43,348 nucleotides of DNA from Elusimicrobiota bacterium. Lineage in GTDB: Bacteria > Elusimicrobiota > Elusimicrobia > 2-02-FULL-39-32. Of this stretch, positions 22,111 to 37,250 are shown one piece after another; the first letter of the stretch is position 1; every line of letters starts with the position of its first letter. Location of the stretch: assembly GCA_016180425.1 (NCBI GenBank), contig JACPBF010000020.1, positions 1 to 43,348 on the forward strand, read 5' to 3'. The notes under the pieces are model-generated. The model did not search any database. It worked only from the letters and a program-made list of their open reading frames with translations, and was not told the origin of the DNA. The position numbers and the translations under genes are program-made.

Positions 22111-23175
22111 TTATTCTTTCGGATAAGAGCCAAGGACTTTTAAGGAAAGACAAACTTTCTTTAGTTCAGCCAGGGCTTTTCCTATTTTTTCTTCTTTATA
22201 ATGGCCAAGAAAATCCACAAAGAAAAAGTATTCCCAGGCTTTTTTCTTAGTTGGACGAGATTCGATTTTGGTTAAATTAATCTCAAAATTTTTGAAAATC
22301 CCTAAAATTTCATTTAAAGCTCCTACCTTATCCTTGATTGAAAGTAGAATAGAAGTTTTATCTTTTCCCGAAGGCGGAGGCGATTTTTTGCCTACAATTA
22401 AAAACCGGGTAAAATTTTCCTCAACATCCTCTATCCCGGGAGCAACTATTTTAAGATGGTGCAACTTTGCAGCTAAAGGAGAAGCGATCGCAGCAGCGCT
22501 GCCGTCTAAAGAAGCCTGACAAGCAGCATCCGCAGTGGAACGAGATTCATGGATTTCCACATTTGGCAGATGACTTTCCAGATAACGCCTGCATTGAGCC
22601 AGAGCCTGGGGATGAGAATAAACCCTTTTAATTTTTGCAATTTTGCCAGAAGCAGAAAGCAAGTAATGAGAGATGGGTTCTTCTCTTTCCGCGCAAATCA
22701 CTAAATCTGATTCCACAAACATGTCTAAGGTGTGGTTCACAACCCCTTCAGTTGAATTTTCAATTGGAACCACTCCATAATCAGCCCTATTTTTCTCAAC
22801 CTCTACAAAACAGTCGCTAATCGCCTTTTGAGGCAGCAAATCAGAACCCTTGCCAAAATGTTTGATAGCTAACTGATGCGTGAAAGTGGCTTCGGGCCCA
22901 AGAAAAGCGATTCTTAATTTTCTCTGCGCGTTTCTGCAAACATTAAAAATCTCCTGAAAAATCGTCTCCAAATCTTCTGGTCTAAGAGGCTTGAGATTTT
23001 TAGCGACTAAACGGTCTAATATTTCCCGTTCCCTTGAACTGGAATAAATAGAATCCCCGCTCTTATCTTTTTCCTTGCCAATCGCTTTAGCGCATTCCGC
23101 TCTCTTTTTAAGAGCTTCTAAAATGCGCTCGTCAATCTGGTCAATTTCTTTTCTAATGGAATCAATTTTTTTCAT
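22111..23175 (-). CDS. pheA: Bifunctional chorismate mutase / prephenate dehydratase
   Basis: This is the P-protein of phenylalanine synthesis, 354 residues. An AroQ chorismate mutase helix bundle (about 1-85, RKEIDQIDERILEALKKR) leads into prephenate dehydratase (about 88-270, AFLGPEATFTHQLA, and ENSTEGVV). An ACT domain (about 272-350, with ESRPTKKKAWEYFFFVDF) binds phenylalanine for feedback inhibition. All three parts look whole. It begins the aromatic section, 5 bp after pgeF. Confidence 0.94.
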   Translation of the reverse strand: MKKIDSIRKEIDQIDERILEALKKRAECAKAIGKEKDKSGDSIYSSSREREILDRLVAKNLKPLRPEDLETIFQEIFNVCRNAQRKLRIAFLGPEATFTHQLAIKHFGKGSDLLPQKAISDCFVEVEKNRADYGVVPIENSTEGVVNHTLDMFVESDLVICAEREEPISHYLLSASGKIAKIKRVYSHPQALAQCRRYLESHLPNVEIHESRSTADAACQASLDGSAAAIASPLAAKLHHLKIVAPGIEDVEENFTRFLIVGKKSPPPSGKDKTSILLSIKDKVGALNEILGIFKNFEINLTKIESRPTKKKAWEYFFFVDFLGHYKEEKIGKALAELKKVCLSLKVLGSYPKE

Positions 23176-34621: not shown

Positions 34622-34713
34622 GGAGGGGTGCTGGAGCGGATGATCAGGCCAGTCTCGAAAACTGGTAGGCCTTTTATCGGGCCTCGTGAGTTCGAATCTC
34701 ACCCCCTCCGCCA
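34622..34713 (+). tRNA. tRNA-Ser (anticodon CGA)
   Basis: This is a class II tRNA of 92 bases including an encoded CCA end (34711-34713). The acceptor stem GGAGGGG pairs with CCCCTCC. The anticodon stem CCAGT/ACTGG encloses the loop CTCGAAA with anticodon CGA at 34656-34658. A long variable arm and the T loop GTTCGAATC are clear. The anticodon reads UCG serine codons. The restriction-modification island begins directly downstream. The CCA itself takes part in a CCAAGTTTT/AAAACTTGG inverted pair reaching into the island. Confidence 0.93.
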
Positions 34714-34735
34714 AGTTTTCTAAAAGAGAAATTTA

Positions 34736-34938
34736 GCGGTCTGTCGCTAACAATGTTCGAACCGCTATTTAAAAAAACTTGGATGACATTTCGGGATAAT
34801 GAATTTTAAAAACAGCGTTTATCATGCTCCCCATGGTCGCTTCGTTCCCTTCCCTTCGGCTTCGCCGTAAACCAAATAGGAAGTTATGCTTAATAAAAGA
34901 AAAACTTCCTTGCGGTCAAAAATTCCTTCCCCCTTCCT
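34736..34938 (+). repeat. Left inverted-repeat arm of the R-M island
   Basis: This 203-bp arm begins GCGGTCTGTCGC and ends near TTCCCCCTTCCT. Bases 34736-34832 match the reverse complement of 37034-37130 without a mismatch. The rest matches with small indels: 13 bp and one 5-bp TTCCC unit absent here, plus a few substitutions. Within it AGCGGT and ACCGCT (34735-34740 and 34761-34766) form a local hairpin. Confidence 0.88.
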
Positions 34939-34968
34939 ATCTTTATGCTTTACATTTTAATAATAAAT

Positions 34969-35012
34969 GCTAACTATAGTATGTAGCACTAAAGTTAGCA
35001 AATAACTATACT
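34969..35012 (+). promoter_or_regulatory. C-box operators of the controller gene
   Basis: GCTAACTATAGT (34969-34980) and ACTAAAGTTAGC (34988-34999) form an inverted repeat with 11 of 12 bases matching, separated by 7 bp. Each half holds a smaller palindrome-like box (ACTATAGT, ACTAAAGT), centred 15 bp apart. TATACT (35007-35012) may be the -10 of the controller promoter, with the boxes where a -35 would lie. This is the usual layout by which a C protein activates and then limits its own operon. The 13-mer ACTAAAGTTAGCA recurs at the methyltransferase promoter. Confidence 0.7.
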
Positions 35013-35030
35013 AATAACAAGTCAATTTTT

Positions 35031-35249
35031 ATGAAAAGAGAAATTTTAATTAAATTTGGTCAAAAAGTGCGTAACGAACGCAATCGGCTAGGATTGTCTC
35101 AAGAGGAATTAGCTTCACGTGCTAATGTTCATCGAACATATATCGGCATGATTGAGAGAGCTGAAAAAAATATAACACTAGAAAATATTGAAAAAATTGC
35201 CAATGCCCTTGAGATACCACTTAATAAGCTAATGAACTTAAAAAAATAA
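35031..35249 (+). CDS. XRE-family controller (C) protein of the R-M system
   Basis: This small DNA-binding regulator of 72 residues is a single helix-turn-helix domain: FGQKVRNERNRLGLSQEELA, then the recognition helix VHRTYIGMIERAEKN and a dimerisation tail IANALEIPLNKLM. This is the form of C proteins, which delay endonuclease synthesis until the host is methylated. The C-box repeats 30-60 bp upstream support that. It is followed after 4 bp by the endonuclease gene, so both share a transcript. Confidence 0.9.
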   Translation: MKREILIKFGQKVRNERNRLGLSQEELASRANVHRTYIGMIERAEKNITLENIEKIANALEIPLNKLMNLKK

Positions 35250-35253
35250 GTTT

Positions 35254-35853
35254 ATGGGAACAAGAGAATTAAGTAAAAGAAAAAAGTGGCAACATATTAG
35301 CGGTGGAAAAGCTGGAACTGCGGAGAAGAATTTTTACAAAGTATTCTCAAAACACTTTAAAGGTTCTGATTTTAAAATAAGAAAAAGACCTAAAGAGTTT
35401 AATAATATTTACTTTAATGTAAAGCTCAGTGAAGAAGTGTTATCTAAAATTTATACTCCGAATATTGAAGAATGGAAGCATGGAGTAGCACCGGACTATG
35501 CCATAGATAATATGAAAACCAAAAAAACACTGTATGTTGAAGTCAAGAGACAGGATGGATGGGTAGAAGGAAAACCTCGTAGCGCAGGCAGAGGAAATGC
35601 CCATGAGAGATCTTGTAAATTTTTTACACCAGGACTGCTAAGAATAATGAGAGGGCAAGGAAATCTTGGCAATAATGTTTTGCCATTTTGGACTGTGTTT
35701 CAAGGTGATATTACGCGTGATCCATGTCGCGTAAGAGAAATAACCTGCTGGTATGATGACTACTCTGCGCATTTTTTTATGTGGAGAAACTCAGCAGATA
35801 GCGAATCACTAATCAATCATTTCAACGAAAAACTAAAACATCTTTTAATTTAA
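35254..35853 (+). CDS. MunI-like type II restriction endonuclease (predicted site CAATTG)
   Basis: This endonuclease of 199 residues closely resembles MunI in length and motif order. The PD-(D/E)xK centre is Asp81 (APDYAI), Glu96 and Lys98 (VEVKRQDGW), offset by two from MunI Asp83, Glu98 and Lys100 as I recall them. The recognition segment GRGNAHERSCK (112-122) carries the GNAxERS motif shared by MunI and EcoRI, both of which read an AATT core. I therefore infer cleavage at CAATTG. All motif residues are intact. It follows the C gene by 4 bp and is convergent with the methyltransferase, 41 bp apart. Confidence 0.9.
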   Translation: MGTRELSKRKKWQHISGGKAGTAEKNFYKVFSKHFKGSDFKIRKRPKEFNNIYFNVKLSEEVLSKIYTPNIEEWKHGVAPDYAIDNMKTKKTLYVEVKRQDGWVEGKPRSAGRGNAHERSCKFFTPGLLRIMRGQGNLGNNVLPFWTVFQGDITRDPCRVREITCWYDDYSAHFFMWRNSADSESLINHFNEKLKHLLI

Positions 35854-35894
35854 GAATTACCTATACCCTATTTTATTTCTTCCAGCCATTTTTT

Positions 35895-36674
35895 TTAAAC
35901 GAGAACTGACTCACGAGAGTTAAACAACTCGAGTTCGGACTGACTTAACTTGGATGGCAACGATTCTTCAATTTCTTTAAGTACATCTAATCCCCATGTT
36001 GACCAACCTTTAAATTTTCTTCTTGCGAATAATTCAATGCGTTCCTGAGTCGGAAACATTTCTTCTATTGCTCGCATTACCTCTATTGGCTTCTCGCTAT
36101 GTTCTTTTCTTGGGCTTCGCACTAATTGTTGTATATTTCTCACACCTCTTGGTTTTGGTATTTTACCTCGCTTGAACACCAAACATAATTCACAATTTGA
36201 AAGAGTGTATTGCCCAGGATTGTGATTCATTTTGTCCCAAACAAAGGCAACTGTTTTATAATCAAATCCCCATGCTCCACCTAACTCTATAGCTTGATCT
36301 AAATGTGGATTTGTCGCCCACATAAATAAAAGACAATCATCTTTTGAGATTTCTTGAATGGGAATTTTCATCATTTCGCTCGTTTTTAATGTTGGGTATT
36401 TAAATGTAGCTGAACTGATGAATATTTTTTTTGAAAGGTCGATTTTTTCTATACTTTTACTGCTTTTATCGAATTGTAATTTTCCATTATAGTGCCATGG
36501 TGGATCAGCATAAATTATGTCAAATTTTTTATTTGGCAACTCGGGATAAAGATTCGGCAATGTGTTTTGTTTTATTCGTTTTTTGGTTTCCTCATTATAA
36601 ATCGAATATCCAGTTTGTTTATTTAATAAACTGATTTTGTTTCGCGATTCCTTTTTCATAAATATAGAATTCAT
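35895..36674 (-). CDS. Adenine DNA methyltransferase, MT-A70-like (M.MunI type)
   Basis: This is the protective methyltransferase of the system, about 259 residues from the chosen start. The catalytic motif is DPPW within FDIIYADPPWHYNG, followed by LLFMWATNPHLDQAIELGGAWGF split by helices, and a C-terminal EHSEKPIEVM and RIELFARR that bind SAM. This is the MT-A70 fold used by M.MunI to methylate adenine. The frame extends to a TTG at 36710, but a promoter-like TATATA/TATAAT (36699-36706) and a C-box (36680-36692) lie in that extension. The ATG at 36674, or the one at 36659, is therefore more likely. Confidence 0.88.
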   Translation of the reverse strand: MNSIFMKKESRNKISLLNKQTGYSIYNEETKKRIKQNTLPNLYPELPNKKFDIIYADPPWHYNGKLQFDKSSKSIEKIDLSKKIFISSATFKYPTLKTSEMMKIPIQEISKDDCLLFMWATNPHLDQAIELGGAWGFDYKTVAFVWDKMNHNPGQYTLSNCELCLVFKRGKIPKPRGVRNIQQLVRSPRKEHSEKPIEVMRAIEEMFPTQERIELFARRKFKGWSTWGLDVLKEIEESLPSKLSQSELELFNSRESVLV

Positions 36675-36679
36675 TTTAG

Positions 36680-36730
36680 TGCTAACTTTAGTATACATAT
36701 TATATATCAAATATTCAAGCTAACCGTCAA
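36680..36730 (-). promoter_or_regulatory. Methyltransferase promoter with overlapping C-box
   Basis: On the minus strand TTGACG (36725-36730) and TATATA (36701-36706) are 18 bp apart. Just downstream, across the expected start of transcription, lies ACTAAAGTTAGCA (36680-36692), the same 13-mer as in the controller operator. Binding there would block transcription, so the C protein probably represses the methyltransferase as it activates the endonuclease. Confidence 0.6.
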
Positions 36731-36840
36731 ATGAATACTATAGCAATATTTTTAACTTTTGATTATCACTCCTAAAATAATTTGATAGAATACAGCAATC
36801 AGATTGCCTAAATGATTTTCCTTCTTACCTGCGAGCAAAA

Positions 36841-37130
36841 AGGAAGGGGGTTAGGGGGAAGGAATTTTTGACCGCAAGGAAGTTTTTCTTTTATTAAACA
36901 CAATTTCCTATTTGGTTTACGGCGAAGCCGAAGGGAAGGGAAGGGAACGAAGCGACCGTGACAGGAGGGCATGGGGAGCATGATAAACGCTGTTTTTAAA
37001 ATTCATTATCCCGAAATGTCATCCAAGTTTTTTGGGGAGCATGATAAACGCTGTTTTTAAAATTCATTATCCCGAAATGTCATCCAAGTTTTTTTAAATA
37101 GCGGTTCGAACATTGTTAGCGACAGACCGC
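36841..37130 (-). repeat. Right inverted-repeat arm of the R-M island
   Basis: This 290-bp arm is the reverse complement of the left arm, longer because of a 61-bp tandem duplication, a 13-bp insertion (near 36958-36970), an extra GGGAA unit and about 8 bp near the inner end. It ends at ACCGC (37126-37130), after which the similarity fades. The stretch 36711-36840 between the methyltransferase and this arm holds no gene I can support. Confidence 0.88.
36973..37094. repeat. 61-bp tandem duplication inside the right arm
   Basis: Two copies beginning GGGGAGCATGATAAACGC start at 36973 and 37034, exactly 61 bp apart, and are identical apart from the length of the T run. The left arm has one copy. 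The duplication therefore arose after the arms were formed. Confidence 0.93.
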
Positions 37131-37250
37131 CAATCTTCAAAGAATAAAGCTCCGCACAGCAAGTTCTGCGATATCAAAGGAGGTTACGCGCAGCAGGTTA
37201 CTCAGAATTATCAAGGTAAAATTTTTCCAAAAGGTATCAAATAAAAAACT

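Follow-up and report, generated by a model that had tools for sequence, protein, structure and literature searches.

The restriction endonucleases MunI and EcoRI have in common a PD-ExK active site and a GNAxER segment, which reads only the inner AATT of the target. The sites of the two enzymes differ solely in the outer base pair (PMC5896346). A further paper (PMC2630997) lists the partner methylase M.MunI as a beta-class N-MTase and cites an MT-A70 family paper for it. In the convergent system Esp1396I the controller (C) protein binds operators before both the R and the M gene (PMC3758141, PMC5333194), and for mobile restriction-modification (RM) units insertion with a long target duplication as well as IS-linked movement of PaeR7I have been described (PMC3031569).

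Studying the window, i.e. the whole stretch of 43,348 nucleotides from an Elusimicrobiota bacterium, reveals what is very probably a complete and horizontally acquired MunI-type Type II RM cassette, whose endonuclease is predicted to have CAATTG as its target, cleaved as C^AATTG. The gene order is C-R→ ←M, with C and R co-directional and M convergent (Table 1). All three genes are open in the window and the catalytic residues are intact.

Table 1. Features of the RM cassette and its surroundings (positions in the window).
Feature	Position	Strand	Remarks
tRNA-Ser(CGA), insertion target	34622..34713	+	ARAGORN
Direct repeat CCGCCAA, left copy, 7 bp	34708..34714	+	overlaps tRNA 3' end
Left long inverted-repeat arm	34728..34934	+	sub-arms 34728-34833, 34837-34934
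Predicted C-protein operator 1	34968..34982	+	TGCTAACTATAGTAT; upstream of C-R, motif match
Predicted C-protein operator 2	34986..35000	-	TGCTAACTTTAGTGC; upstream of C-R, motif match
C gene, HTH controller, 72 aa	35031..35249	+	precedes R by 4 bp
R gene, MunI-family Type IIP restriction endonuclease	35254..35853	+	199 aa, ATG; predicted C^AATTG
Codons of D81, E96, K98 (PD...ExK, catalytic)	35494..35547	+	alignment to MunI
Codons of R113 and G114-N-A-H-E-R-S120	35590..35613	+	R113-G-N-A-H-E-R-S identical in MunI
M gene, MT-A70-class DNA adenine methyltransferase, 259 aa	35895..36674	-	likely start ATG 36674
Predicted C-protein operator at M promoter/start	36680..36694	+	TGCTAACTTTAGTAT; motif match
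Right long inverted-repeat arm	36853..37138	-	complementary to left arm
Direct repeat CCGCCAA, right copy, 7 bp	37127..37133	+	sequence

Among PDB chains the R protein matches MunI (1d02) with an E-value of 2.4e-68 (phmmer, 233 bits, residues 1-197), and the two proteins are 55% identical from end to end, the remaining 45% of the residues being different. The Pfam profile RestrictionMunI (PF11407) is matched with 253.9 bits (E 1.2e-75, profile positions 8-190 of 193), about ten times the curated cut-off of 25 bits. MunI is the sole restriction enzyme among the PDB matches, and EcoRI does not appear among them up to an E-value of 10. These values bear out the high overall similarity to MunI which the original prediction had stated, and Asp81, Glu96, Lys98 and the GNAxERS segment (GNAHERS, 114-120) are all found in the reading frame where it had placed them. 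In the alignment to MunI, which had been proposed as a check, E96 and K98 are identical in both proteins, as are R113 and residues 114-120. D81 aligns with position 83 of the chain 1d02, where an Ala is found; we take this chain to be the crystallised D83A mutant of MunI. In this column Asp is found in every full-length homologue from another genome. The stretch R-G-N-A-H-E is invariant across the full-length homologues, residue 120 varies, and R119 is replaced by Gly in a single archaeal homologue (L008). Near-identity with MunI is also seen in the segment KRQDGWVEGK..SAGRGNAHERSCK.FTPGLL. Judged by its sequence, the R protein is an orthologue-grade MunI homologue.

The EcoRI/MunI motif that had been cited as the basis for CAATTG reads AATT only and cannot alone separate CAATTG from GAATTC. 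The predicted C·G/G·C outer pair is instead derived from R113 and from the orthology of the whole protein with one characterised reference, MunI. R113 corresponds to MunI Arg115, which we take to read the outer C.G pair; full-text literature searches found no statement on this contact. Because R113 and its neighbours are identical to MunI and EcoRI-type chains are absent up to E 10, CAATTG is the likely target of the R protein, and the orthologue-grade homology together with the complete C-R-M cassette makes it the best prediction. A closer enzyme of other specificity, which had been named as a possible refutation, is not present among the PDB matches.

The CAATTG counts in the host DNA are evidence neither for nor against this specificity. 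The 2.6-Mb genome contains 622 sites, and the window 10 compared to 20.9 expected from dinucleotide shuffles; the site noticed earlier near 22761 is present at 22761-22766. In sampled stretches of the host genome (409 kb) the observed/expected ratio is 0.94 under a maximal-order and 0.63 under a third-order Markov model, while a congener without the RM system gives 0.73 and 0.50, respectively. Avoidance of CAATTG was therefore dropped as support for the specificity, as the host ratio is no lower than that of the congener. It had further been concluded that the host needs the methylase. One is indeed present and intact, and with 622 sites and no avoidance it would be needed if R is active, but the frequency of CAATTG, which is no lower than in the congener, gives no independent support for the predicted specificity.

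Among 196 sampled genomes of the host class no other carries the MunI family, and in this respect the earlier description as a very distant host holds. The closest relatives are those of an Omnitrophota MAG (R 80%, M 76%), a woesearchaeote (R 78%, M 80%) and a Kapaibacterium (R 60%, M 65%), followed by those of Clostridia-type MAGs (R 52-53%) and of viral contigs (R 55-62%, covering most of the protein). In L007-L013, L088, L092 and L093 a homologue of M occurs together with R. The archaeal (Woesearchaeota) locus, L008:4001-5333, has no C gene, and in its R protein, 78% identical, GNAHEG replaces GNAHER; this enzyme is possibly inactive or altered. The MunI-type systems of the Clostridia-type MAGs (L010-L013) are divergent, with M facing away from C-R. 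Seven IMG/VR viral contigs (L088-L094) harbour MunI-type endonucleases, three of them with a methylase near R (L088, L092, L093) and two with a controller (L088, L093). In the plasmid collection no match was found, and the phage records yielded one fragment (51%).

The C protein matches the PADLOC model Control_protein (E 9.1e-23), and its nearest structures are C.BclI (E 1.1e-14) and C.AhdI (E 8e-13). The M protein is assigned to PF05063 (E 4.5e-23) and to the PADLOC model MTase_II PDLC03262 (E 1.8e-61), and its DPPW motif is intact; the longest reading frame of the M gene begins at TTG 36710. Because M adjoins R and belongs to the MT-A70 class like M.MunI, it is counted in favour of a CAATTG RM system.

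A control-box motif, TGCTAAY-NN-TAGTRY, is found in two copies before C and in one copy just before the likely M start, where shuffling leads to an expectation of 0. It also occurs upstream of C in the distant relatives L007, L009 and L088, and upstream of M these three have a box copy that deviates from TGCTAACNNTAGTATG in no more than one position. No match was found in 733 kb of other DNA, and the motif is absent from the C-less archaeal L008 as well as from the divergent Clostridia copies L010-L013. Since three of the systems served to define the motif, L088, which is outside that set, is the only independent match. Since three distant relatives likewise have the boxes at both promoters and the 733 kb contain none, the C protein probably controls both the C-R and the M unit via the predicted boxes, as in Esp1396I.

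One could argue that the outer base pair has drifted and that this MunI-family enzyme reads AATT in another or relaxed context (GAATTC, RAATTY or AATT). The motif named in the original prediction is the AATT-reading part common to EcoRI, only the outer pair distinguishes the EcoRI from the MunI site (PMC5896346), and 45% of the R residues are unlike MunI. However, R113 and its flanks are identical even in relatives at 52-80%, and EcoRI is missing from the phmmer matches at any E-value up to 10, so that we consider such a drift very improbable. The cassette could also be a decaying or silent remnant, in which R is inactive and M is retained as a protective or orphan methylase. The archaeal L008, which lacks the C gene and carries an R-to-G change in GNAHER, indicates that decay may take place in this lineage, but in the window three open genes, intact catalytic residues and conserved promoter boxes speak against it, and for the cassette itself we regard it as unlikely. 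We thus keep the reading as a complete MunI-type cassette directed at CAATTG; the original prediction of the specificity is sound, partly for other reasons than those given.

Directly behind tRNA-Ser(CGA), the RM cassette forms an insertion of 2.4 kb (34715-37133). These limits follow from CCGCCAA at both ends and from the congener G001, in which the tRNA is directly followed by the downstream flank with a single CCGCCAA, i.e. an empty site. Complementarity to the right arm amounts to 97% for the first and 94% for the second of the two left sub-arms. The right arm contains a perfect 61-bp tandem duplication (36972-37093). Between the arms no integrase or transposase was found, C, R and M being the sole recognisable genes there.

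A second island is located on another contig behind tRNA-Ser(TGA) (L014:5958-9300, G000:C1 ~98957-102300) and is likewise missing from G001. Its 191-nt inverted repeats (98%) are partly like the arms of the RM cassette, and its cargo consists of HEPN-like and ORF6N genes, with Bro-N outside the arms. Across about 145 further genomes of the class the repeats as such are absent, and only two marginal matches of very short length were seen. The carrier might, as a rather doubtful possibility, represent a so far undescribed family of small, non-autonomous elements, which insert behind tRNA-Ser genes, lack their own integrase and carry defence-like cargo. Such elements would have terminal inverted repeats of ~190-290 bp with GTTAGCGACAGACCGCC near the outer end, and would differ in cargo, a MunI-type RM system in one case and HEPN-like/ORF6N genes in the other.

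In the proposed working of the cassette, the endonuclease would work as a dimeric enzyme with a PD-(D/E)XK site, recognising CAATTG and cutting C^AATTG, while the MT-A70-class methylase would place m6A at CAATTG in the host DNA and so protect these sites. The controller, bound to the conserved boxes before C-R and M, would allow methylation ahead of restriction in a newly entered cell. The cassette would have arrived horizontally, in the form of the 2.4-kb insertion that is bounded by the inverted repeats and lies at the tRNA-Ser(CGA) 3' end.

As a bacterial defence system the cassette is genuine but of an ordinary kind, and it leaves the understanding of Type II systems unchanged; less ordinary is its carrier. 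The MunI family is extended to an uncultured lineage, for which an exact and cheap prediction can be offered, namely m6A at CAATTG and C^AATTG cutting. In addition, the conserved boxes provide an operator of MunI-type controllers that can be tested, and the second inverted-repeat island, taken together with the empty site, suggests how such cassettes could spread between phyla.

In comparison to known systems, the R protein shares the active-site and recognition segments with the MunI RM system (1d02, M.MunI, CAATTG), and the partner methylase is of the MT-A70 class in both, whereas the host lineages are unrelated and the R sequences are 45% diverged. With EcoRI and RsrI (GAATTC) it has the PD-ExK site and the GNAxER logic for AATT in common, but pairwise similarity is undetectable (phmmer, E up to 10) and the outer base pair differs. 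Esp1396I and AhdI, both convergent and C-regulated, have the same layout and a homologous C protein, although their enzymes are unrelated to those found here, and the box TGCTAAY-NN-TAGTRY differs from the common GACT..AGTC type. Like the mobile RM units described before (PMC3031569), these RM genes would have moved as a unit and have left an identifiable insertion; in contrast to those units, however, the insertion has no transposase or integrase inside and is marked by long inverted repeats, a 7-bp direct repeat and its position at the 3' end of a tRNA-Ser.
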